Shown here piece after piece: positions 38,609-63,500 of a DNA stretch of 64,000 nucleotides (positions are counted from its first letter, which is position 1; every line of letters starts with the position of its first letter). Position numbers and translations under genes: made by a program. The notes beneath the pieces were generated by a model. It was not told the origin of the DNA. It saw only the letters and a list, made by a program, of their open reading frames with translations, and did no database searches. The stretch is from positions 62,001 through 126,000 of the forward strand of contig JAUIHP010000013.1 in the NCBI GenBank assembly GCA_030431975.1, given 5' to 3'. The stretch comes from a bacterium (lineage in GTDB: Bacteria > Eisenbacteria > RBG-16-71-46 > CAIMUX01).

Positions 38609-41089
38609 ATGAGACACACTCTCTCCGCATGCCTATTCGTTCGGCCTTCCCGTCTCTCTGCGTTGCCTGTCGTTCTTCTTTACGTCGGGCTCGCCTGTCT
38701 CGCTTCTCCTTCGGCTGCCTTTCGAATCCAGGGAGCGGATGGCGACTCCCCTCCTCACATCTACCCTCAGAACGCCGCCGGGGAACACCGGTTCAGGCAC
38801 TGGGATCTGCGCCCCTTGCCGGAATGTCAACTTCCCTGGTCTCGTGGCGCCGGAACGGCGGATATCGGCGGCGATGCCGAGTGGATCGATGTCGTCGCTG
38901 CGCTCGAAACCTGGAACGACGTATCTCCATCTCTCATCGAGGCTGTGGAGGTCGCCGCTCCTGCAGGCGCGCTTCCGGCGTTCCAGCGAGACAAGAACAA
39001 CATCATCGAATGGGGAGCCGGGTTGGGCGCTGCCACCCTCGCCGCAACCGCCACATGGACGGAAGTAAGCACGGGCCGAATCCTCGAGGCCGACATCCTG
39101 ATCAATGACGACCACTTCACGTGGACGCGCGTCGGACACAATGTTCCGATGGGCGGCAATCCCGATGTCAGAACCGTTGTCACGCACGAAGTCGGCCATT
39201 TGCTGGGACTCGGTCACGCCGACGGAAACGGTGACTCCAATCCCCCTGGCCCGATCATGAACGGCGAACTGGACGTGGGCGGCAACTCCAACCACCTTCT
39301 GTCGGACGACGACCGGGACGGCGCCAACTTTCTCTACAATCAGGACCTGGGAGACGCGCCGGACCCCTGTCGTTTGGGTGGAGTGGTCGGCCTGTACCCG
39401 TCCCTGGTGCACGGAGACGCGCCGGGCGACACGTTGAACGGATTCATTCTCGACTCTGTCGGCGCGGGGGCTTCCCACATCTTCGGAATCCGGACACGAC
39501 AACCGCTGCGCAACTACCTGTACGAATGGCTCGGCGGCGCCACCCCGGATACGTCAAGTAACGCGGATTCGGAGTGTGAAGCGGACATCGTCGACCGCGA
39601 CGAGTTCGACGACGGGATCTCTTTCTTCCCGAACCCTCCGATGTGGGGTCGGCCGCTTACGGTCACTGCAACGATCAACGTCGCCAATGACGCCACCGGC
39701 GCCGGCCACGATTACGACAGTGGTCGCCCGCTTTTCTGGAACGTGTGGTTCGATCGCAACCAGAACTGCAGCTGGGAGGAGGTCGGTCTGGAACACGTCG
39801 TGCACGACAGCCTGACTCCGCCGGATACGACGCTGGCCAACCTCGTACGCACGTTCGAAGAATCGCGGCTGATCCTGCTGCCAAACTTCCTCATCGAGCC
39901 TTTGGAAAAGACCTGGTTGCGAACACGAATCGACTGGGGAGAGGACGCGGGCGTACGCGACGACATCGATGGCACTCTCCAGTTCACGGAGGGAGCGGCA
40001 CAGTTCGGCGAGGTCGAGGACTATCCCTTGAAGTGCGGAGAAAGTAAGTACTACAACATGCAGATCTGTCTGCCGGACGGACATGCGCCCTACCGAGGCT
40101 CCGTCGCGGTCACGACTTCGGACATGACCGGCGGAGGATTCTTCTTCGCGGATGTCGATGCCGATGACTGCGTCCTCAACGCGTTCAGCACCGTCGGGCT
40201 CGAGACGACGTACGACCATGCTACGGACGAAACGACCATCGTTTTCGAGGAACCGGGCACGCTACATCCAAAGTACCGACACATCGGCTGGTGCCCCGAG
40301 GAGATATTCGGAAGCGAGGGCGCGCCGCCTACGATGCTGCGCAGCTACCTGCTGCCGGAAGAGGGCGAACCTACAGAGGAGGAGTGGGTGCCCACCGTCC
40401 ACTGCGAACGTTTCGGTTATGACGGCTATGACCACCTCATGATCGGAACCGCCGACGCGGGCAGCGGTGGGTTCATCGGGGGCCGGCAAACCGGCGGAAG
40501 CTGGAACGATACGCTGAGCGTCGTCGTGTCGTATTGGATCCCTGACGATGTCGTTCCCCTTCCCAACCTCAGCCCTTGTGATCCACTGATCGAGACGTTG
40601 GACAAGGTCTACGTGGGAGAAGGCACCGTGACTCCAGAATCCCCTTTCGTGTTTCGCATCGACCACGGCCCCGAGTACCAGGAGGATGAACTGGTGATCC
40701 TCGAGGTCGAGACCCGCTGGTCGACCAACGGAATCGTCAACCGGCAGCTCGTCGAGTTCCTCGGGACCGACTCGCCCGGCAACGTGACGGAAGAGACAGA
40801 GGTACGGGTGCCCAGCCTGCGGATGCACGCCGCTCCCAACCCGGCGACTTCCGGCACCGCACTGCACTTCGAGCTTCCCCGAAGCGGCAAAGTCTCCCTG
40901 GAGATCTTCGATGCGCAGGGCGCCCGCGTTCGTTTCCTTCTCGATGACGAGAGCCTGCTCGCGGGAGCTCATCGACGATGGTGGGATGGAACAAACGAAA
41001 CGGGGCGGCCTGCGCCATCCGGAGTCTATTTCGGACGGCTGAGATCCGAGGCCGGATCAACGACCGGAAGGATCATCCTGAGACGATGA
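38609..41089 (+). CDS. Secreted matrixin-type metalloprotease with GEVED and FlgD-Ig-like domains
   Basis: An 826-residue secreted protease behind GAGGAGGA. A signal peptide covers about residues 1-37. The metzincin zinc site is VVTHEVGHLLGLGHADG (about 190-206), the full HExxHxxGxxH. The Met-turn candidate is PIMNGE about ten residues later. The pre-domain has the WNDVSPSLIEAVE element of M10-like enzymes. A region ending AQFGEVEDYPL (about 475) is the GEVED domain often found in exported proteins. The protein ends in a FlgD-Ig-like domain (NPATSGTALHFELPRSGKVSLEIFDAQGARV, then GVYFGRLRSE). No Cys-switch is obvious. It forms an operon with the 179-residue gene. Confidence 0.92.
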   Translation: MRHTLSACLFVRPSRLSALPVVLLYVGLACLASPSAAFRIQGADGDSPPHIYPQNAAGEHRFRHWDLRPLPECQLPWSRGAGTADIGGDAEWIDVVAALETWNDVSPSLIEAVEVAAPAGALPAFQRDKNNIIEWGAGLGAATLAATATWTEVSTGRILEADILINDDHFTWTRVGHNVPMGGNPDVRTVVTHEVGHLLGLGHADGNGDSNPPGPIMNGELDVGGNSNHLLSDDDRDGANFLYNQDLGDAPDPCRLGGVVGLYPSLVHGDAPGDTLNGFILDSVGAGASHIFGIRTRQPLRNYLYEWLGGATPDTSSNADSECEADIVDRDEFDDGISFFPNPPMWGRPLTVTATINVANDATGAGHDYDSGRPLFWNVWFDRNQNCSWEEVGLEHVVHDSLTPPDTTLANLVRTFEESRLILLPNFLIEPLEKTWLRTRIDWGEDAGVRDDIDGTLQFTEGAAQFGEVEDYPLKCGESKYYNMQICLPDGHAPYRGSVAVTTSDMTGGGFFFADVDADDCVLNAFSTVGLETTYDHATDETTIVFEEPGTLHPKYRHIGWCPEEIFGSEGAPPTMLRSYLLPEEGEPTEEEWVPTVHCERFGYDGYDHLMIGTADAGSGGFIGGRQTGGSWNDTLSVVVSYWIPDDVVPLPNLSPCDPLIETLDKVYVGEGTVTPESPFVFRIDHGPEYQEDELVILEVETRWSTNGIVNRQLVEFLGTDSPGNVTEETEVRVPSLRMHAAPNPATSGTALHFELPRSGKVSLEIFDAQGARVRFLLDDESLLAGAHRRWWDGTNETGRPAPSGVYFGRLRSEAGSTTGRIILRR

Positions 41090-41114
41090 CTCCCAGCCCG
41101 GGATCAGAGGTCGT

Positions 41115-41149
41115 GGTAACTTAGGCTCGGGAACGGAGCCCGAGTTACC
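41115..41149 (+). promoter_or_regulatory. Hairpin abutting the start codon of the sigma-kinase fusion gene
   Basis: GGTAACTTAGGCTC (41115-41128) and GAGCCCGAGTTACC (41136-41149) pair with 12 Watson-Crick pairs, one G-U and one mismatch around a 7-base loop. The ATG begins at 41150, and no Shine-Dalgarno lies outside the stem. It may control initiation, or be the terminator of the matrixin operon. Confidence 0.5.
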
Positions 41150-44100
41150 ATGACTCATGATCAGCCGCACACGGCCTCACAGCCAGGTCCTGAGCACGTT
41201 GAAACCGAAGTAACGCGTCTACTCGATCGCATCCGCGCCGGACACAACGGCTCTTTCTCCGACCTCGTTTCCCTACTCTACGGAGACCTCCGCGTCCTCG
41301 CCCGGGCCCAACTTCGCCGCGAAGCCGCCGGCCACACACTTCAGCCTACGGAACTCGTGCACGAACTGTACGTGCGGCTGGCTGCGATCGACCCGAACCT
41401 GTGGAGGAATCGTCGCGAGATTCTCTCGATGTCGGCCACGGCGATGCGTCGGATCCTCGTCGATCATGCTCGCGCCAAGCTGCGCCACAAGCGACAGGGA
41501 AAACGAGTTCACGTGCCTCTTCCGTCTGACGTCATTTCACCGGCATCGGGCATCGACCCTCTCGACTGGATTGCGTTGTGCGAAGCGCTGGAGACTCTCG
41601 AACAGGACTCGCCTCGCCGAACGCAGGTCGCGCAGCTGCTGGGTTTGGCTGGGCTCACTGCAGCCGAAGCGGCCGAGATCCTCGGTACCTCGAAGCGAAC
41701 TGTGGAACGGGAGTGGAAGGAAGCACGCGACTACCTGCGGCGGGAACTGGGACGGGAGGTTGTCGGTCGAGTCCTCCTCGACGCACCGGATCCAGGAGCG
41801 GGGGCGGCGACGAAACGTCCCGTAGAAGAGCTACCGAAAACCATCGGACGCTACGAAGTTCTCCGAAAACTCGGTCAGGGTGGAATGGGTGACGTGTACC
41901 TGGCCCTGGACGCGAAGCTCAATCGAAATGTCGCCGTCAAAGTTCTGAAAGACGGATTCCAACCGGAATCAAAGGAGCGGCTGCATCGTGAGGGCCGCCT
42001 GCTCGCGGCGATGAACCACCCAAACATCGCCGTCGTGTACTCCATGGAAGACGAAGGCCCCGGCTCATTCCTGACCTTGGAGTTTGTCGACGGGGAGACC
42101 TTGCATGAGCGAATCTCTCTTGGAAAGTTGGGAGGGTTGTCCGGGGTACTGAGAACGGCGAGGGAGATCGCGTTGGCCTTGGAAGCCGCGCACGCGTCGG
42201 GGATTCTCCACCTCGACCTCAAACCTGCCAACATCCTCTTCGACCCCGAAGGCCGGGTCAAAGTCGTCGACTTCGGGTTGGGACGAAACGTCAATCGAAG
42301 CGGAGACGCATCTGCAAACGACAGGAGCACGGCCGGCCGGCCAGATGATCGGAGCACGGCAGGCCATCCGACTGAAGGCGCCGCTGCCGAACGGGTCGCC
42401 GGTACTCTTGGGTTCATGAGCCCCGAACAGATGGCGGGCCGACCGCTCGACGACCGCGCGGACGTTTGGGCCTTTGCCAACGTCCTGGTTCTCCTGCTCA
42501 CCTCGTCCCTCGATCCGGAACCCGAGAAGGAGGCCGCAGAAAAGGAGGCGAAAGAGGCCGCTGCGGCGGAGTCCCTCGGGCTCTCTTCCGAGTTCCGGGA
42601 GTCTCTGCGCATGAGCCTCCATGCGGAGCCGGAGAAACGGCCCAGCGCAGCGGTGTGGCGGCGGATTCTCGAAGACGAGATCGTCGCCGCGACAACTTAT
42701 GGTCGCACCCGTTCCGAAGACTCCGCGGAGATCCATCCTTCACTGGAGGAGCCACCGACGACGGGCCGCGCAGGCGACGGCCGTCGAAGGCTCCGACTCC
42801 GGACTCCTACGTCACTCTGGGGGCGGGACGAAGAGAGAGACAAACTCAAACGCCTACTCCAGGACGAGAGACTGATCACGCTGACGGGAGCAGGTGGGAT
42901 CGGCAAGACGGCTCTGGCAGCGACCGCCGCATTGGACTGGCTCGAACCCGATTCGATCGCCTACTTCATCGATCTTGCCGCCATCCGCGAACCCGCCGGA
43001 GTTCCGTCGGCGTTTGGGGACGCACTCGGTTTCACTCCCGCTCCGAGGTCTCCGTTTCACGTCGCCCTCGTTCGGCACCTTCGAAGCACAAGTGATGCTC
43101 CACGGCTCCTGGTGGTCGACAACTGTGAACACCTTCTCGATGACGTTCGAGACATCCTCTCGGAAGTGTTGGAGCAGACGGATGCGGTCGTTCTGTGCAC
43201 CAGCCGTGAGCCGCTGCGACTTCCAACAGAACAAGTTTTGCGCGTCGGGCCACTTGCCATTCCGAAAGCCGACGGCTCTATCAACAGCCTCGAAGCGACG
43301 GCTTCCAGTGCCATGCTTTTGGACCGCGTTCGAGAGGCGAACCCGGAGTTTCGACTGCTGCCGACCGACAGCTCGGCGCTGGCGAGCATCTGCCGGTTGC
43401 TCGGCGGAGTTCCACTGGGCCTGGAGTTGGCCGCGATGCGCTGCCGACAGTTGCCGATCAACGATGTCGCACAGCATCTGGGGTCAGCCGGCGTTTCCGT
43501 CGTCGGGGAACGGTGGGCCACTTCAGAACAACACCGGAGTGTCGAGAAGGCCATCGGTTGGAGCTATGAACTGCTCTCGGAGGACGGTCGGGCCTTCTTC
43601 CTCGCCTGCGCGGCCTTCCCGTCGGGCTGGACTGCGGATGCGATCGGTATCGTCGTCGCAGACGATGTCCCGACGTGGCTCCATCTGAACCTGCTACAGG
43701 GACTCGTCGACAAGAGTGTCGTCGAGGTCGAACCCAGAGCCGGCAGAGCCCTGCGAACGGGCGCAACGCCGCGCGTCGTTCCCCGTTACCGGTTTCTCGA
43801 ACCCATCCGGGAGTTCGCCCGCAGAAAGTTGGAAGAGTCCGGCCGCGCATCGCACTATGACTTGCGCCTACTCGACGCCATCGCCGGTTTCGTCCGCACC
43901 GCCGCGCCTCATCTCAAGTCGAAGGACCAACGAGAGTGGCTGGACGCGCTGGAGACGGAGCGGGAAGCCATCCAGCGAGCTCTCGCGATCGCCGCCGCGG
44001 ATCCCAGCCTGCACCTCAAAGGTCTGCGGCTGGTTCGACAACTGGGAATGTTCTGGTCGCTTCGCGGCAGTTGGGAGACGGCACTTGCAAGCTACGAGGA

Positions 44101-45076
44101 GTGGTTGGCTCGGGTCACCGAGGAGAAGGCCGTCGAACTGCCCGGTGGATCGGGTGAAGGGATCGATCTGCTCCGGGCGGATACCTGCAACTGGATGGGC
44201 AACCTGGCCTTTCGTTTGGGATCCTTCGACAAGGCAGCCCACGCCTACGAAGCGGTCCTGCCCACGGCTCGACAACACGGTGACGCTGCGCTCGAAGGAA
44301 GGGCCCTGGTCAACCTGGGTGCGGTCGAACTGATTCGAGGCAAACTTACGGAAGCGAGAACAGTCTTGTGGCAAGCGCTTCGTGTTCAGAGAAAACGCCG
44401 CGACCACGCGGAGATTGCCGTCATACTTCTCAATCTCGGCGTCGCCTCCGAGCGCGAGAGCGATCTGCGCAATGCGCGACGATTCTACGCGGCGAGCCTG
44501 CGTCTACGCCGACGGATCGGAGAGCCCAACTCCATCGCACTTTCCTTGAACAATCTCGGAATCATCGAGGAGAAGGCCGGGCACTTGGACGAGGCCCGAA
44601 GTCATCACGAGGAAGCTGTGGAGATTCGACGGTCGATCGGAGACCGGGGAGGACTGGCGCAGAGCCTCTTCAGTCTTGCGGCGGTGCAGGCTCTCACAGG
44701 GGAAACACGAATCGCGAAACAGGTACTGCTCGACTGTCTCGAGCTTCGCATCGAGTTGGGGGATCCGCACGCTGTAGCGGACACTCTCGATTCTTTGGGA
44801 GTGTTGCTGGCCGACGAAGTCGGGGATGGGACGACGCCGTTACCCCAACCCACCGTGCTGTGCACAGCTCTTGCGCGACGGCTCCGTGTTGAGCTCGAAG
44901 ACGTCGTGACCTCACCGACGTTGAAGCATCGCGTCACCGAAGCACGAAGCCGCGTTCGGGAACGGATCTCGCCCAAAGAGTGGGAGGCCGCCGAAGACGC
45001 GGCTTGGGCGAACACCCCGCAACAGGTCCTTCGGACTCTGAAAGAGTTGACTGACGCCCAAGCGGATCCTGGCTGA
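41150..45076 (+). CDS. Fusion: ECF sigma factor - Ser/Thr kinase - STAND ATPase - TPR
   Basis: One 1308-residue cytoplasmic chain. Residues 1-205 are an ECF sigma factor of the TIGR02999-like group: HTLQPTELVHELYVRL (sigma-2 region) and LTAAEAAEILGTSKRTVEREWKEARDYL (sigma-4 helix-turn-helix). Residues 231-500 are a Hanks-type kinase: GQGGMGDVYLA, VAVKVLK, catalytic loop HLDLKPAN (near 357), DFG near 373, and MSPEQMAG. An insert near 384-411 repeats DRSTAG(R/H)P. Residues 555-900 are a STAND/NB-ARC-like ATPase: P-loop GAGGIGKT near 578, Walker B LLVVDNCEHLLD near 653 and GGVPLGLEL. TPRs run from about 1000 to 1240. Related sigma factors are usually encoded next to separate kinases. The fusion suggests transcription gated by ligand sensing and self-phosphorylation. 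Confidence 0.93.
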   Translation: MTHDQPHTASQPGPEHVETEVTRLLDRIRAGHNGSFSDLVSLLYGDLRVLARAQLRREAAGHTLQPTELVHELYVRLAAIDPNLWRNRREILSMSATAMRRILVDHARAKLRHKRQGKRVHVPLPSDVISPASGIDPLDWIALCEALETLEQDSPRRTQVAQLLGLAGLTAAEAAEILGTSKRTVEREWKEARDYLRRELGREVVGRVLLDAPDPGAGAATKRPVEELPKTIGRYEVLRKLGQGGMGDVYLALDAKLNRNVAVKVLKDGFQPESKERLHREGRLLAAMNHPNIAVVYSMEDEGPGSFLTLEFVDGETLHERISLGKLGGLSGVLRTAREIALALEAAHASGILHLDLKPANILFDPEGRVKVVDFGLGRNVNRSGDASANDRSTAGRPDDRSTAGHPTEGAAAERVAGTLGFMSPEQMAGRPLDDRADVWAFANVLVLLLTSSLDPEPEKEAAEKEAKEAAAAESLGLSSEFRESLRMSLHAEPEKRPSAAVWRRILEDEIVAATTYGRTRSEDSAEIHPSLEEPPTTGRAGDGRRRLRLRTPTSLWGRDEERDKLKRLLQDERLITLTGAGGIGKTALAATAALDWLEPDSIAYFIDLAAIREPAGVPSAFGDALGFTPAPRSPFHVALVRHLRSTSDAPRLLVVDNCEHLLDDVRDILSEVLEQTDAVVLCTSREPLRLPTEQVLRVGPLAIPKADGSINSLEATASSAMLLDRVREANPEFRLLPTDSSALASICRLLGGVPLGLELAAMRCRQLPINDVAQHLGSAGVSVVGERWATSEQHRSVEKAIGWSYELLSEDGRAFFLACAAFPSGWTADAIGIVVADDVPTWLHLNLLQGLVDKSVVEVEPRAGRALRTGATPRVVPRYRFLEPIREFARRKLEESGRASHYDLRLLDAIAGFVRTAAPHLKSKDQREWLDALETEREAIQRALAIAAADPSLHLKGLRLVRQLGMFWSLRGSWETALASYEEWLARVTEEKAVELPGGSGEGIDLLRADTCNWMGNLAFRLGSFDKAAHAYEAVLPTARQHGDAALEGRALVNLGAVELIRGKLTEARTVLWQALRVQRKRRDHAEIAVILLNLGVASERESDLRNARRFYAASLRLRRRIGEPNSIALSLNNLGIIEEKAGHLDEARSHHEEAVEIRRSIGDRGGLAQSLFSLAAVQALTGETRIAKQVLLDCLELRIELGDPHAVADTLDSLGVLLADEVGDGTTPLPQPTVLCTALARRLRVELEDVVTSPTLKHRVTEARSRVRERISPKEWEAAEDAAWANTPQQVLRTLKELTDAQADPG

Positions 45077-47659: not shown

Positions 47660-50521
47660 TTATCGTCGTTCCAACTCACGCTGCTCTGGATCGACACCCT
47701 GAGTCGGAAAGACATACCTCTGGTAGATGAAGCCGATTCCGACAAGCGCCAATCCCAACCCAACAAAGGACGCCACACGATAGAGCCCCTCGAGCTCTGC
47801 CATGTCGAAGAGGAAGAGCTTGGCCACCGTCAAGAGAATCATGGCCAAGGACGCATATCGCAGGCGGATCGACTTGAGTCGAAGCCCCATCGCGAGCAGC
47901 ACGCCCGCGTAGATCAGCCACACGACCGAGTATGCGTACCACTCTCCGGTCGAAGTGAACCCCGAATCGAGATTCTCACCCTGAAAGGCGTGGCGTACCT
48001 CGAGGGAGAGATAGACCAACATCAATACGTGGCCGGCAACCACTGCAGCCCGGGAAGCCGCGCGGTGCGCTCTCCACTCCCGGAAGAACAGGAACGCGAA
48101 CACCGCAGGGATCCCGTACGCAAGCAACAGAAGATCGAACGGAAGTGGCCCGATCCGGGGAGTCTCCCGAAAGAGAGGATTGAAGGCGAGAACCTGCAAC
48201 AGAAACACTTGTGCAGCCGCAAGAACGACCAGGACCTTCCAACCCCACTTGATGACGAGACGGCTCGAATGCTCGGCCCGTTTCTGCAGCCCGTAGGCGA
48301 CCACCAACCACACGATGGAGTGCACAGCCTGTTCCAACAGTTCATAGTGCGGGCTGTTGATCTCTCCTGCGATGAGAACGCGAATGAGCATCGAGAAGAG
48401 TACGACCACGAAGGCAAGAGCCCCGGTCTCGAGCAGGATGACCAACGAATCGTCGCGATCGCGCCGGAACCGAAGTGCCGCCCAGAAGAACGCTGCGGCG
48501 GGCACTCCGTAGCCGTAGATGATCCAGCCCGTCGACGCCATGCTGGTTGCCGAGTATTCCAGAACATTCGGATTCAGAATCAGTCGAACGAGCACCGCGG
48601 ACGCGACCATCCAGGCCACGACTCGAAGCGAGCGAATCCGGAGCCCTGTCCCCAAGCTCGCGAGCACAGGGAGCTGCATTGAGAGAGCAACAGTAAGCCA
48701 AGCCTCCCGCAACCCCATCGTCAGCGCGAGCGTCACGGCGGCCGAAGTCGCAGCCGCATACAGTCCGAAAGCAAGGTTGGTCCCCGGCTTCTCGCGATCC
48801 CGCGCCAAACGAAGGGCGGCGAGGAACATGGGAAGTGCGAGTACCAGGCCGAACACTCCCCACCCAAGACTCTGCTCGAAGCTTCGGAGACGCTCGAAAG
48901 CCGTCGCAAGAAGAAGAATGGGAAGGGCGGCGGAGGTTCCAGCCCAAAGGAGATTGCGCCGCTTCTCTGATAGCGAAACGAATCCCCCAATGCCGAAGGC
49001 GATTGCAAACGCGAGGGCGGTCCACAGGTACCTCTGATGGACCTCCGGCAGAAGAGAACCCAATGCGGCCCGAAAGTCGCCGCGATGTGACTGTTCTATC
49101 GTCTCGGCCAACGTGAGTCCGGGATCGATCGGCCAGAGGAGGAACGACAGAAGTACAGAACCGGCGGCAACAGGAAACAGCAGTTCAAAGGACGTGACAC
49201 GGCGGGCCGCGACGAAGAGCACCGCGGACATCAGACCGAGAAGCAGCACCGAGGCCGGACCGTAGTCGTTGGCGTTGGCGACTCCGACAGCAAGAAGCAT
49301 GCTGATCACAGCGGTCGCAGCAGCTACCGAGCGCTCATTGAAGATGTCCCCCAGATCAACTTGTTCCTGTCTGGCTTCCTCGGACGCTGCGGATCGAACG
49401 ACTTCGGCGATAGGTCGAGGCAGAAGGGTGAGGGCCAGTCCGGTGAGGAGTGCGAGGAAACTTCCGACCGGAATGACATCGGTTGCGGGGAGACTCCCTT
49501 CGGATATGACCTTCAGCACCCAGATCACTGCGCAAGCGAGGTTGGCCCATCCCATCCACCACCAACGGCGTGAACGAAGGGTCAACATCGCTCCCGCGTA
49601 GAGCGCAAACAAGTAGCCGAAGAGCCTCCAGGCGGACGGATCCTGACCGGAGATCAGAAGCGGTGTGAGGTAGCCGCCCAACATACCGAGGAGAGCCACG
49701 AACCAACCCTGTAACAAGGACAGCGCGAGCCCGGTCAATGAGAGACCCGCGAGAATGGCAAACGCCACGTGGGATGGAATGAGATCGTGTAGAGCGAAAG
49801 AGGCGTAGACACTCGCAAAACTCACGAACAACCCCGCGGCCGTGAGCGCCTGTGGAACCTGATTGGGACGCACAGCCGCGATCGCCAACTCAGCCGGCCG
49901 TCTTCGCAGCCACTCTCCCACGAGAACGAGAGCCAGTCCGTACGTGAAGCCGGCCGCCGTTCGTACGGCCGGGTTGAGGGAGTCCCGATCCATGGCGTAC
50001 TTGACGAGGAACACGCCACCGAGAGCCATGGCGATCGCTCCCAACCAGACCAGCCAGTGTGAGGTCAGTCTCTCTTCGAAGCTGCTTTGATTGCCAGGTC
50101 GAACCTTCGACTCATGATCGAATGTTGACGGGCCCTTTTCCGCCGGTTCGGTTGTTCCCGGTTCGGTTGTTCCCGGTTCGGTTGCTTCCGGATCGGTTGT
50201 TTCCGGATCGGTCGGCCGTGTTTCCGTCGGGAGCATCGGGTCCGGTTGCGGCGCCGGACTCGCAGGTGGCGATTTCGGTTGGCGAAGAACGGAAAAAGGT
50301 GACGTCGGAAGGGGCTCGCTCTCGGCGACGTCTCGGGCCAGCTCGGCTTCGAGTCCGTCGGTGGTGGGTCGTTGGGAGTGATCGCCCAGTTCCAGAGCAG
50401 TCAGTCGTTCGCTCAGCCGCCGGTTCTCCGATCGTAGATCGCTGACCCGGACGGCGTTTGCAATCGCAAGGATCGGAAGGCCGACCCCATAGAACACGAC
50501 GGCCAGCACGAGAAGCTCCAT
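47660..50521 (-). CDS. DUF2339 polytopic membrane protein
   Basis: A 953-residue membrane protein of the DUF2339 family, whose function is unknown. ATG at 50521 opens an N-terminal membrane helix (MELLVLAVVFYGVGLPILAIANAV) followed by a short coiled-coil segment (VSDLRSENRRLSERLTALE). A polar Pro/Thr/Glu-rich region (about 60-150) with a TEPGTTEPG tandem repeat then leads to roughly 25 hydrophobic segments, the first being the signature WLVWLGAIAMALGGVFLVKYA. VKYAMDR and FxLLKxxxxD-like elements near the end (LTVAKLFLFDMAELEGLYRVASF) match the family. It stands alone between the barrel and the dockerin-like gene. Confidence 0.9.
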   Translation of the reverse strand: MELLVLAVVFYGVGLPILAIANAVRVSDLRSENRRLSERLTALELGDHSQRPTTDGLEAELARDVAESEPLPTSPFSVLRQPKSPPASPAPQPDPMLPTETRPTDPETTDPEATEPGTTEPGTTEPAEKGPSTFDHESKVRPGNQSSFEERLTSHWLVWLGAIAMALGGVFLVKYAMDRDSLNPAVRTAAGFTYGLALVLVGEWLRRRPAELAIAAVRPNQVPQALTAAGLFVSFASVYASFALHDLIPSHVAFAILAGLSLTGLALSLLQGWFVALLGMLGGYLTPLLISGQDPSAWRLFGYLFALYAGAMLTLRSRRWWWMGWANLACAVIWVLKVISEGSLPATDVIPVGSFLALLTGLALTLLPRPIAEVVRSAASEEARQEQVDLGDIFNERSVAAATAVISMLLAVGVANANDYGPASVLLLGLMSAVLFVAARRVTSFELLFPVAAGSVLLSFLLWPIDPGLTLAETIEQSHRGDFRAALGSLLPEVHQRYLWTALAFAIAFGIGGFVSLSEKRRNLLWAGTSAALPILLLATAFERLRSFEQSLGWGVFGLVLALPMFLAALRLARDREKPGTNLAFGLYAAATSAAVTLALTMGLREAWLTVALSMQLPVLASLGTGLRIRSLRVVAWMVASAVLVRLILNPNVLEYSATSMASTGWIIYGYGVPAAAFFWAALRFRRDRDDSLVILLETGALAFVVVLFSMLIRVLIAGEINSPHYELLEQAVHSIVWLVVAYGLQKRAEHSSRLVIKWGWKVLVVLAAAQVFLLQVLAFNPLFRETPRIGPLPFDLLLLAYGIPAVFAFLFFREWRAHRAASRAAVVAGHVLMLVYLSLEVRHAFQGENLDSGFTSTGEWYAYSVVWLIYAGVLLAMGLRLKSIRLRYASLAMILLTVAKLFLFDMAELEGLYRVASFVGLGLALVGIGFIYQRYVFPTQGVDPEQRELERR

Positions 50522-50749
50522 ACCCAAGCCCCCTATCGTTCGGTCCCCTCTCTGCACCCGAAAGTCCGAGTCGGGCCTGTCGGCACGAACACATGGCGCG
50601 GCAATCGTGACCGCTGCGCCATGTTCGTTCAGACAGGCCCGTCGGCATCCGTGCAGGGAAAGTATCGGAACCGTTCCGCGATCCGGAAAGGATCGCGGTA
50701 ACGGGAGGTTTGGTTTTCTGTCACCTCGCCACGATCGCTGGAGCCGAGA

Positions 50750-60500: not shown

Positions 60501-63500
60501 CACGGGTCTGGGTGAAGACGGAGTGCTCGTCGAGCGTTTCTCTGCCGGGGACGGCGCCACCCGCGGCGACTTCGGTCACCGCATCGGCGTGGGTGAAGGA
60601 TTCGCCGTCGTCGGCGCCCCGGAGGACGACGGGGCCGGAAGCGGACGCGGTGCGATCTATCTCTATGTCAAGGGCATCGAAGGATGGGACTACGTCGACA
60701 AGTACACCGTGGCTGCGACGAACAGCGCCCACTTCGGTGAAACGATCGGCGTCGACGGCAACTTTATCATCGCCGGCGCTCCATTCGACGACACCGACGG
60801 ACTGGACGCGGGCTCGGCCTGGGTCTTCGAGTTCACGGGAAGCGAGCTCTTGCAGAGGGCGCGTCTCTCCCGCCCGACCCCGGCAGCCGGTGATCGCTAC
60901 GGCGCCACCGTCGCCATGGGAGAGAACTTCGCGGCGGTCGGAAGCTCTGTCGCGGCGGTCGCGGACGTACATCTGCGCAGCACGACGACGGGCAACTGGT
61001 CGTTCGGCCAGAGCCTCACCATCAGTGGCGGTTCTTCCAGTCTGTTCGCGGCCTCGATGGACATCGCCGGAAGCTACCTTTATGTGGGCGCCCCCCTCTC
61101 AAGCCTGGGCGGACGTTTTCGCCAGGGAAGCGTCTACGTCTACGACGCCGGCAACAGCTTCCTGTTGCGGTCGGAGATTCGCGGCGACTCGGACGAAGCC
61201 TTCCTTGGAGTGAAGATTTCGGCCGCTTCACAAGACCGCGCCACCTTCGAAGGAGCGGATCAAACTTTCCACGTCTACGAGCAGTTCGAGAGCGGTTTCC
61301 GCGAGACCGGCCGTGTCCGCTCCAACGGCACCGGCAACTACCAGCAGATCGCGTATGAGGACGGAGTCATCCTGGCGGCGTACGAAGATGGCAGCGACGG
61401 CGGGGTTCGGGTCTTCCTCGAGGACTTCAGCGGGTGGACGGAATCCAAGACGCTCCGTTCAGACCTCTCGGGCATTCGTTTCGGCTCCAGCGTAGCGATC
61501 GGCGATGAGGTTGCCTTCTTCGGAGGCCCCTCTACCGGCGAAGCCACCGGATACGTCTACTACGTCGACATTCCGAATCGCCCAACCCAACTCACCGCCA
61601 CGGACGGAGATCAGGACGCGGCGGTGCGACTGGAATGGGACGACAACTCCGAGCGTGAGAACGGGTACACGGTCTTCCGCGACGGGAATGCCATCGCGAC
61701 GACCGGACCCAACGTGACCACTTACAATGATGGCGACTCCCAACCCGGACAGGTTCACGACTACGCTGTGGCGGCCTTTCAGGATGTGGTGGGTCGCACC
61801 GCTTCCCGCCAGGACTTCGGTTGGCAGACTGCAGACGGAGTTATCTCCGGCCGCATCTCGACGCGCGCTGGCGCGTCCATCGAAGGCGCGGTGGTTTGCC
61901 TGGATCCGCCACCGAACAAGGCCCTCCTTCTCGACGGCGTCGAAGGACACGCCCTCGTCGCGGACGGATTCATTTCCAACAACGTGAGCGCCGGAAGCGG
62001 GCTACGCGAAATGACCCTGGAGTTCTGGCTGAATGCCACGAGCCTCGGGGACGGCACCATCTTCTCCGTTCGCGAGAACGGCGGTTTCAACCCGGACCTG
62101 GACTACTTCACCCTGGAAGGAAACGGGAGTGGGGGTCTCCGACTGTGGATTCGCAATGACGCAGTGATCTCCACGCCGTCCCTTGACCTCGAGAACGACT
62201 GGACTCACATCGCGGTCACCTGGCTCTCCGCCACCGGGGACGTCCAGTTCTACCGGAACGGTTCCTTGTTTGCCACGGGCAACGGCGCCGACGGAGCGGC
62301 CCTTGGCGGCAACGGAAAGTTCGTCTTCGGACAGAACCTTCAGGAGTTCTCCGGAGGTTTCGTCCGCCCGTTCCAGGGTGCTCTGGACGAGTTCCGCATC
62401 TGGGACAGCGTTCGGGACATCTCAGCCATCCAGGAGACGGCGGACCAAGTCCTGACCGGAGACGAAGTCGGGCTCCTGACCTACTTCCCGTTCGATGAGG
62501 GCCTGGGGCGTGCGGCCGGGAACCTCACCGGCGGTCCGGCTGCTTCTTTGGAAGACGGCGCCTTCTGGGCCGAGGACGGCGCGCCTCTCATGGTCTGTGC
62601 AGAAACGGATCTCGAGGGAAACTATTCGATCGCCGGTCTGCGCTACGGTGAGTCCTCGACTTACGAAGTCATTCCGACGTTCGGAAGCCACGTCTTCGAC
62701 CCGGCCTTCACGTTGATCTCGCTCGATCGTGAACAGCCGGTGCAGAACGAAGTCGAGTTCCTCGACATCACGTCCTACGCGGTTTCCGGAACCATCAACT
62801 TCGAAAACACCGGCTGCTTCCCGGAAAACGTGACGATCTTCGTCGACGGGGTTCTGGGCGGCGTCACGGATTCCGATGGCCGGTTCGTCGTTTCGGCAGC
62901 GCCCGGCACCCGGGTCATCGAACCCCGAGTGGAAGGCCGCGTCTTCAGCCCGGCCACGGTCGAACTCGAGATCGAGTCCGACACCGCCGGGATCGATTTC
63001 CGGGACACGACGCTCCGCTTCCTCTCCGGCCGAGTCGGCGGAGGCTGCGACTTCTCGATCGGAGACGTCGTCCTCGAGATCGTGAGCGAGGATGGCTGCT
63101 ACGGCCCCATTCAGTTCACCACGGATGGAGAGTACGACCTGCTTCTCCCTCCCCAGAGCTACTTCATGCAGGTCGTCGACGTCAGCAACGTTCCGGGAGC
63201 CCTCGACCGGGCCACGATCCTCGACTACTTCGAGGTGTTCGGACCGCAGACCGTCGACTTGACCGACGAGGATCTCGAGCAGAACTTCATCTACCGTGCT
63301 CCGCTTTCCGTGGAAGTCACGGGATTCCCGACCGGCAGCTGTGAAGGAGAGATCATCACCGACCCGGTCTCCGGAGTATCGTTTCCGGCCGTGCCGATCC
63401 TGGCGCAGGGCCCGACCCCGATCGAATTGACGATCTCCGTCTTCGAGAACTACGGCAACGGCAACCTCTGTCCGGTCGACAGCGGAGTTGTCGCGGTCTT

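Follow-up and report, generated by a model that had tools for sequence, protein, structure and literature searches.

Can signal perception, protein phosphorylation and promoter recognition be united in one polypeptide? This question is raised by a gene of an Eisenbacteria bacterium (GenBank assembly GCA_030431975.1, contig JAUIHP010000013.1) that lies within a stretch of 64,000 nucleotides, here called the window (positions 62,001 to 126,000 of the contig), to which all coordinates refer. At 41150-45076 of the forward strand, a single uninterrupted frame of 1308 codons, from ATG to TGA, joins an extracytoplasmic function (ECF) sigma factor, a Hanks-type Ser/Thr kinase, a STAND ATPase module and tetratricopeptide repeats (TPRs). 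A first-pass annotation, made from the letters alone, had proposed these four parts in this order; the open reading frame, Pfam and NCBIfam bear it out, the domain search that it suggested recovering sigma, kinase, P-loop NTPase and TPR matches, and the single 1308-residue chain with all four parts is confirmed. It had also called for homologues of the same order, and one was found, G002:C510, in a sister genus of the same family, where sigma, kinase and STAND parts share one frame with 39% identity to the window protein and the contig ends before the TPRs. Our tentative interpretation, for which we would claim somewhat less than an even chance, is that the protein is a complete relay from signal to promoter, in which a STAND/TPR sensor would act on the kinase, the kinase would phosphorylate the sigma part of its own chain (or of a neighbour in an oligomer), and the sigma part would then join RNA polymerase as a subunit, no free messenger being involved. 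The parts of the gene are as follows.

41150-45076, forward strand: the fusion gene, 1308 aa, with ECF sigma, Hanks kinase, AfsR-like STAND and TPR parts (open reading frame list, Pfam, NCBIfam)
41204-41749, forward strand: ECF sigma domain (sigma-2 and sigma-4), residues 19-200 (PF07638 and TIGR02999, above cut-off)
41342-41353, forward strand: QPTE motif, residues 65-68, at the DAED place in sigma-2.2 (alignment of 155 family members; likeness to QATE/T51 of EcfK, PMC13147305)
41348-41350, forward strand: codon of Thr67, the predicted phosphosite (family alignment and likeness to EcfK)
41645-41728, forward strand: sigma-4 helix-turn-helix, residues 166-193 (Sigma70_r4_2 and helix-turn-helix matches; model helices 171-178 and 182-200)
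41750-41842, forward strand: linker, residues 201-231, with no in-frame ATG, GTG or TTG and with low model confidence at 215-224 (translation, model)
41843-42652, forward strand: Hanks-type Ser/Thr kinase domain, residues 232-501 (PF00069, motifs, fold search)
42320-42373, forward strand: short repeat DRSTAGRPD/DRSTAGHPT in the activation loop, residues 391-408 (translation; pLDDT below 50 at 380-412)
42815-43795, forward strand: STAND NTPase module with winged helix, residues ~556-882 (AAA_16, AfsR profile match, model, fold search)
42887-42910, forward strand: Walker A motif, GAGGIGKT (sequence motif)
44072-44821, forward strand: TPR superhelix, residues ~975-1224 (TPR_12, TPR_10, helix pairs of the model)

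The N-terminal part of the translation matches Sigma70_ECF over residues 19-200 (E 2.9e-38; 132 bits against a cut-off of 21.1) and the NCBIfam family TIGR02999, Sig-70_X6 (165.1 bits against 126.15), and had no match when queried against PDB sequences. In canonical sigma factors, the DAED motif of sigma-2.2 touches the beta-prime clamp of the polymerase. This acidic motif is absent from the window protein, where Q65-P66-T67-E68-L-V-H71 stands in its stead. Thr occupies the position of T67 in 146 of the 155 aligned family members (as QPTA or QPTE), and each of the remaining nine has at least one Asp or Glu within the four-residue motif (for example, DTDD, EAED or DTVD). Sigma factors from outside Eisenbacteria share the same Thr motif, and their partner kinases have no match to the STAND part. 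As a separate observation, three ECF sigmas encoded close to kinase genes (L019, L007 and L067) carry the acidic motifs DTDD, ETVD and DTSD and perhaps form a further ECF group that is linked to kinases and phosphorylated at a different site.

The closest known counterparts of such a sigma factor are controlled by phosphorylation. In EcfP, DAED is replaced by STTA, the second Thr of which is phosphorylated by PknT, resulting in activation (PMC8999054). In EcfK, the motif is QATE, and PknS phosphorylates T51 together with sigma-linker residues including T106, either T51 or T106 alone being enough in vivo (PMC13147305); EcfK residues Q49, T51, E52 and H55, as published, correspond in identity and spacing to Q65, T67, E68 and H71 of the window protein. 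The comparison with EcfP and PknT offered in the first-pass annotation thus stands, inasmuch as the sigma-2.2 motif is non-acidic with a Thr, as in that class: EcfP-PknT of Vibrio, EcfK-PknS of Xanthomonas and the ECF43 group, like the window protein, combine an ECF sigma lacking DAED, a Thr at the phosphosite and a Hanks-type kinase partner. Judged by published motif descriptions, the motif and the kinase association suggest a kinase-activated sigma of the ECF43 type; direct proof of regulation by a kinase is available for ECF43 members only, and for several other ECF groups it is presumed from gene neighbourhood (PMC8999054). Whereas EcfP-PknT and EcfK-PknS are each two proteins, and PknS spans the membrane as a receptor kinase whose sensor is extracytoplasmic, the window protein is one chain with a STAND-TPR part and with no membrane anchor seen.

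The kinase part, which matches Pkinase over residues 235-501 (E 1.5e-38) and for the model of which PknB is the best fold match, retains the catalytic Lys, Asp and Asn (K264 in VAVK, HLDLKPAN with D356), along with DFG at 374-376 and SPE at 424-426. The catalytic loop is not of the RD type, reading HLD in the window protein and HCD in the G002 fusion rather than HRD, a sub-type feature that membership in the Hanks-type family does not require. The short repeat in the activation loop is a Ser/Thr-rich near-duplicate within a disordered insert that is missing in the G002 fusion, and its Ser and Thr residues are possible candidate autophosphorylation sites. A defence assignment by PADLOC was set aside, the matches (to PD-T4-6 and mad6) being generic kinase matches.

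Downstream of the kinase, the motifs GAGGIGKT and GVPLGLELAA are present and the Walker residues are intact. Pfam recognizes this region with AAA_16 at 556-677 slightly below the gathering cut-off (E 1.1e-6; 29.7 against 32.6) and with the general AAA_22 narrowly above it (27.5 against 27.0), and the scan of the fusion protein gave neither an NB-ARC match nor any STAND model above the gathering cut-off; the assignment to STAND (AP-ATPase/NOD type) is, therefore, drawn from profile and fold. A profile of the C-terminal module aligns with AfsR over the whole NOD-TPR part (4.7e-39; 8k60, 8jke), AfsR being the solved protein with a sequence match across the entire STAND-TPR module. The model of residues 545-1308, built with 27 sequences (mean pLDDT 86, pTM 0.80), comprises an NTPase, a winged helix and a TPR superhelix, with a STAND-TPR crystal structure, 6mfv, as the first-ranked fold match and Apaf-1 among the others. 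The earlier description of the ATPase as NB-ARC-like thus holds for profile and fold but not for Pfam NB-ARC. TPR_12 matches three times (E 1.3e-25), with repeats from residue ~1010. The SARP and BTAD domains of the AfsR family were not found by Pfam, the N-terminus being occupied by sigma and kinase, so that only the NOD-TPR part is AfsR-like. Neither a membrane anchor nor a protease target domain appears among the Pfam and NCBIfam family matches. To us, the odds seem evenly balanced that the gene arose when a kinase-dependent ECF sigma gene was joined to the kinase-STAND-TPR gene downstream of it, and that its product works in the cytoplasm as a single-chain transcription switch.

In AfsR of Streptomyces, the NOD and TPR parts inhibit the activator domain, ATP binding lifts the inhibition, and AfsK phosphorylates AfsR (PMC10936776). 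Like the window protein, then, AfsR is a transcription regulator with STAND and TPR parts, and it is the target of a Hanks-type kinase; the output of AfsR, however, is a SARP that works with the housekeeping sigma, and its kinase is separate, whereas here the output is the sigma itself and the kinase is in the chain. Single-chain sigma factors with a regulatory C-terminal part are known from ECF41 (SnoaL), ECF42 (TPR) and ECF57 (WD40), but among the fused ECF extensions reviewed, which include these and others, none is a kinase or a STAND NTPase (PMC8999054). The open-licence literature searched yielded no described sigma-kinase fusion, which is not proof that none exists, and no system of this architecture, in agreement with the first-pass annotation.

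How unusual is the fusion? In the genome of the window, 20 TIGR02999 sigma genes score above the cut-off and only the window gene is fused, while 16 further family sigma genes, some of them below the cut-off, each have a kinase gene directly downstream. Across 147 genomes (47 of the window's phylum, 60 Acidobacteriota and 40 Planctomycetota; members above the cut-off tallied from tables, and not every candidate sigma scored in the largest genomes), two of roughly 300 family members are fused to a kinase, and the unfused members mostly adjoin a kinase gene. Inspection of the long frames in this screen yielded no third fusion. In 392 Planctomycetota and 396 Acidobacteriota genomes, a 512-residue sigma-kinase query found no spanning match, a weak negative given that three candidates per genome were scored, and no plasmid record matched 80% of the fusion protein. 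Sigma-kinase pairing is common and the fusion is rare. Of the same-order homologues to be sought across Eisenbacteria-like genomes, one was found, in a second genus of the same family, and none among the other roughly 300 family members screened, and the contrast drawn in the first-pass annotation between separate proteins elsewhere and one molecule here is right about the fusion but must be qualified for the pairing, which is very common; because of the 16 further pairs in the same genome, novelty is confined to the fusion.

The same domains occur in the same order, in adjacent genes, in operons of Eisenbacteria, Acidobacteriota and Planctomycetota that consist of a TIGR02999 sigma gene followed by a gene for a kinase with TPRs, with or without a STAND part; these differ from the fusion in being two genes, with a stop codon between them or an overlap in different frames. 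Operons with the full set, a sigma and then a kinase-STAND-TPR protein, exist in the same genome (L005 and L008) and in G002 (L100), so that the fusion would constitute evidence of the Rosetta-stone type that such neighbouring sigmas and kinases act together. Five of the 16 pairs (L101, L102, L103, L104 and L059) lie in the same frame with one stop codon between the genes, which makes the route to a fusion short. With six of the 16 pairs in frame, there is no excess over one third, and the possibility of an enrichment reflecting readthrough was dropped. Apparent additional fusions also dissolved on inspection: long open frames of the same genome (C12, C17, C41 and C1), as well as contig-scan sigma and kinase matches in Acidobacteriota, Phycisphaerae, Steroidobacter and others, were adjacent genes with one in-frame stop read through, or overlapping genes, and long sigma frames elsewhere (G007, G033, G039, G002, G025, G000:C3, G090, G471, G057, G064 and G082) were open upstream, belonged to another ECF type or had no kinase joined. 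The kinase-STAND tree keeps the two fusions apart, and the approximately unbiased (AU) test does not reject their union (p 0.3).

From the parts read in the sequence (one chain, a sigma domain without DAED, an intact kinase, a STAND module and TPRs), we infer the following course of events. At rest, the sigma domain would bind core RNA polymerase poorly because QPTE replaces DAED, and the STAND/TPR part would keep the chain closed and nucleotide-bound. Binding of a ligand or of a partner protein to the TPRs, together with ATP binding, would open the STAND module, which would then probably oligomerise, as do AfsR and Apaf-1, drawing the kinase domains together and activating them. The active kinase would phosphorylate T67, either in its own chain or in an adjacent one, and the negative charge so introduced would allow contact between the sigma domain and the beta-prime clamp, by analogy with EcfP and PknT. 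The tether of ~30 residues between sigma and kinase would commit each kinase to its own sigma rather than to a free partner. That ligand binding by the TPR/STAND part could directly gate transcription, as the first-pass annotation suggested, has its nearest precedent in AfsR (PMC10936776).

The same precedent supplies the most serious rival explanation, which we regard as possible but unlikely, namely, that the STAND/TPR part sterically autoinhibits the sigma domain, ATP or a ligand releases it, and the kinase serves other targets or the STAND part. In AfsR, the inhibition of the activator domain is indeed steric, and phosphorylation hardly changes activation, instead counteracting ATP (PMC10936776). 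Moreover, E68 retains one negative charge in the motif, and the T51A variant of EcfK is functional in vivo, with T106 in the sigma linker compensating (PMC13147305), so that T67 may be neither the sole nor the decisive site and there is room for a mechanism independent of it. These points count against the phosphorylation relay, as do several others: the Arg of HRD is replaced by Leu, so that control through the activation loop may differ from that in PknB; the arrangement of the sigma and kinase domains is uncertain, the model of residues 1-520 having both domains folded and the linker poorly defined (pLDDT 83, pTM 0.62); and the branch of the window protein is long in the sigma tree as well as in the kinase tree. 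What speaks for the relay over steric control alone is the retention of the Thr in relatives, where the acidic motif is lacking, the same motif in sigmas whose partner kinases have no STAND match, and the sigma-kinase pairing as the constant element. It is improbable, in our view, that the chain is cleaved or that its two halves act independently, with a protease freeing the sigma and the kinase-STAND part signalling elsewhere: the predicted disorder of linker residues 215-224 and the activation of several other ECF groups by proteolysis (PMC8999054) would fit, but no anchor or protease target domain was matched and, compared with the gap in the split operons, the linker is the shorter of the two.

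Slightly less probable still is that the fusion is neutral or in decay, a drifting paralogue whose stop was lost; the long branch, the rarity of the fusion and a start codon buried in a hairpin (see below) are compatible with it, whereas the intact catalytic and Walker residues, 3.9 kb without a stop or frameshift and a second genus with this domain order speak against it. An artefact of assembly or sequencing that joined two genes appears very improbable. In principle, one base error could mimic a fusion of the kind of pair that a single in-frame stop keeps apart. However, the frameshift or join that the first-pass annotation had flagged as a risk near 41760-41840 was looked for, and there is neither a frameshift nor a stop at the junction, across which codon composition remains of the coding type. 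From codon 185, within sigma-4, to codon 246, within the glycine loop of the kinase, there is no in-frame ATG, GTG or TTG, and a separate standard start for the kinase is thus lacking. The spacing between the sigma and kinase domains was measured in 103 non-duplicate loci, from where the first ends to where the second starts: the two fused genes have the smallest values of all, 93 and 135 nt, and the 101 unfused loci have 167-570 nt (median 278). Were fusion unrelated to spacing, the chance of this would be 1.9e-4, a figure that treats the two fusions as independent and that one shared ancestral event would reduce to a single case. A misread stop codon alone would leave the ordinary spacing of a pair; more than a stop is missing, and a stop lost through sequencing error is, given also the lack of a start codon, unlikely. 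The two fusions come from two assemblies, and the window locus lies well within a 185-kb contig.

A natural fusion argues that a sigma factor of this kind and its neighbour kinase function together. Being a soluble single polypeptide, the protein could permit one-tube reconstitution of a sensor-kinase-sigma relay together with core polymerase. Through its Thr-or-acidic pattern in sigma-2.2, the large TIGR02999 family, with ~20 members in this genome and numerous ones in certain Planctomycetota and Acidobacteriota, comes within the prediction of an EcfP-like phospho-switch.

The surroundings of the gene add one further feature.

41102-41162, forward strand: hairpin with 27-nt arms, in which a GGAG Shine-Dalgarno-like site (41135-41138) and the fusion gene's start codon are buried (inverted-repeat search, folding)

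No inverted repeat in the window is stronger than this hairpin (minimum free energy -41.4 kcal/mol, z -7.0), which occurs once in the genome; an Rfam search around the fusion gene, the hairpin included, returned no family. It may restrain translation or may form the hairpin end of the upstream transcript. Directly upstream, and separated from the hairpin by 12 nt, lies a gene (38609-41089, forward strand) whose Peptidase_M10-like product has a FlgD-Ig-like region at the C-terminus, slightly below the Pfam cut-off; this gene and the fusion gene could be co-transcribed. Further downstream, on the reverse strand, 47660-50557 encodes a predicted DUF2339 membrane protein of 965 aa.

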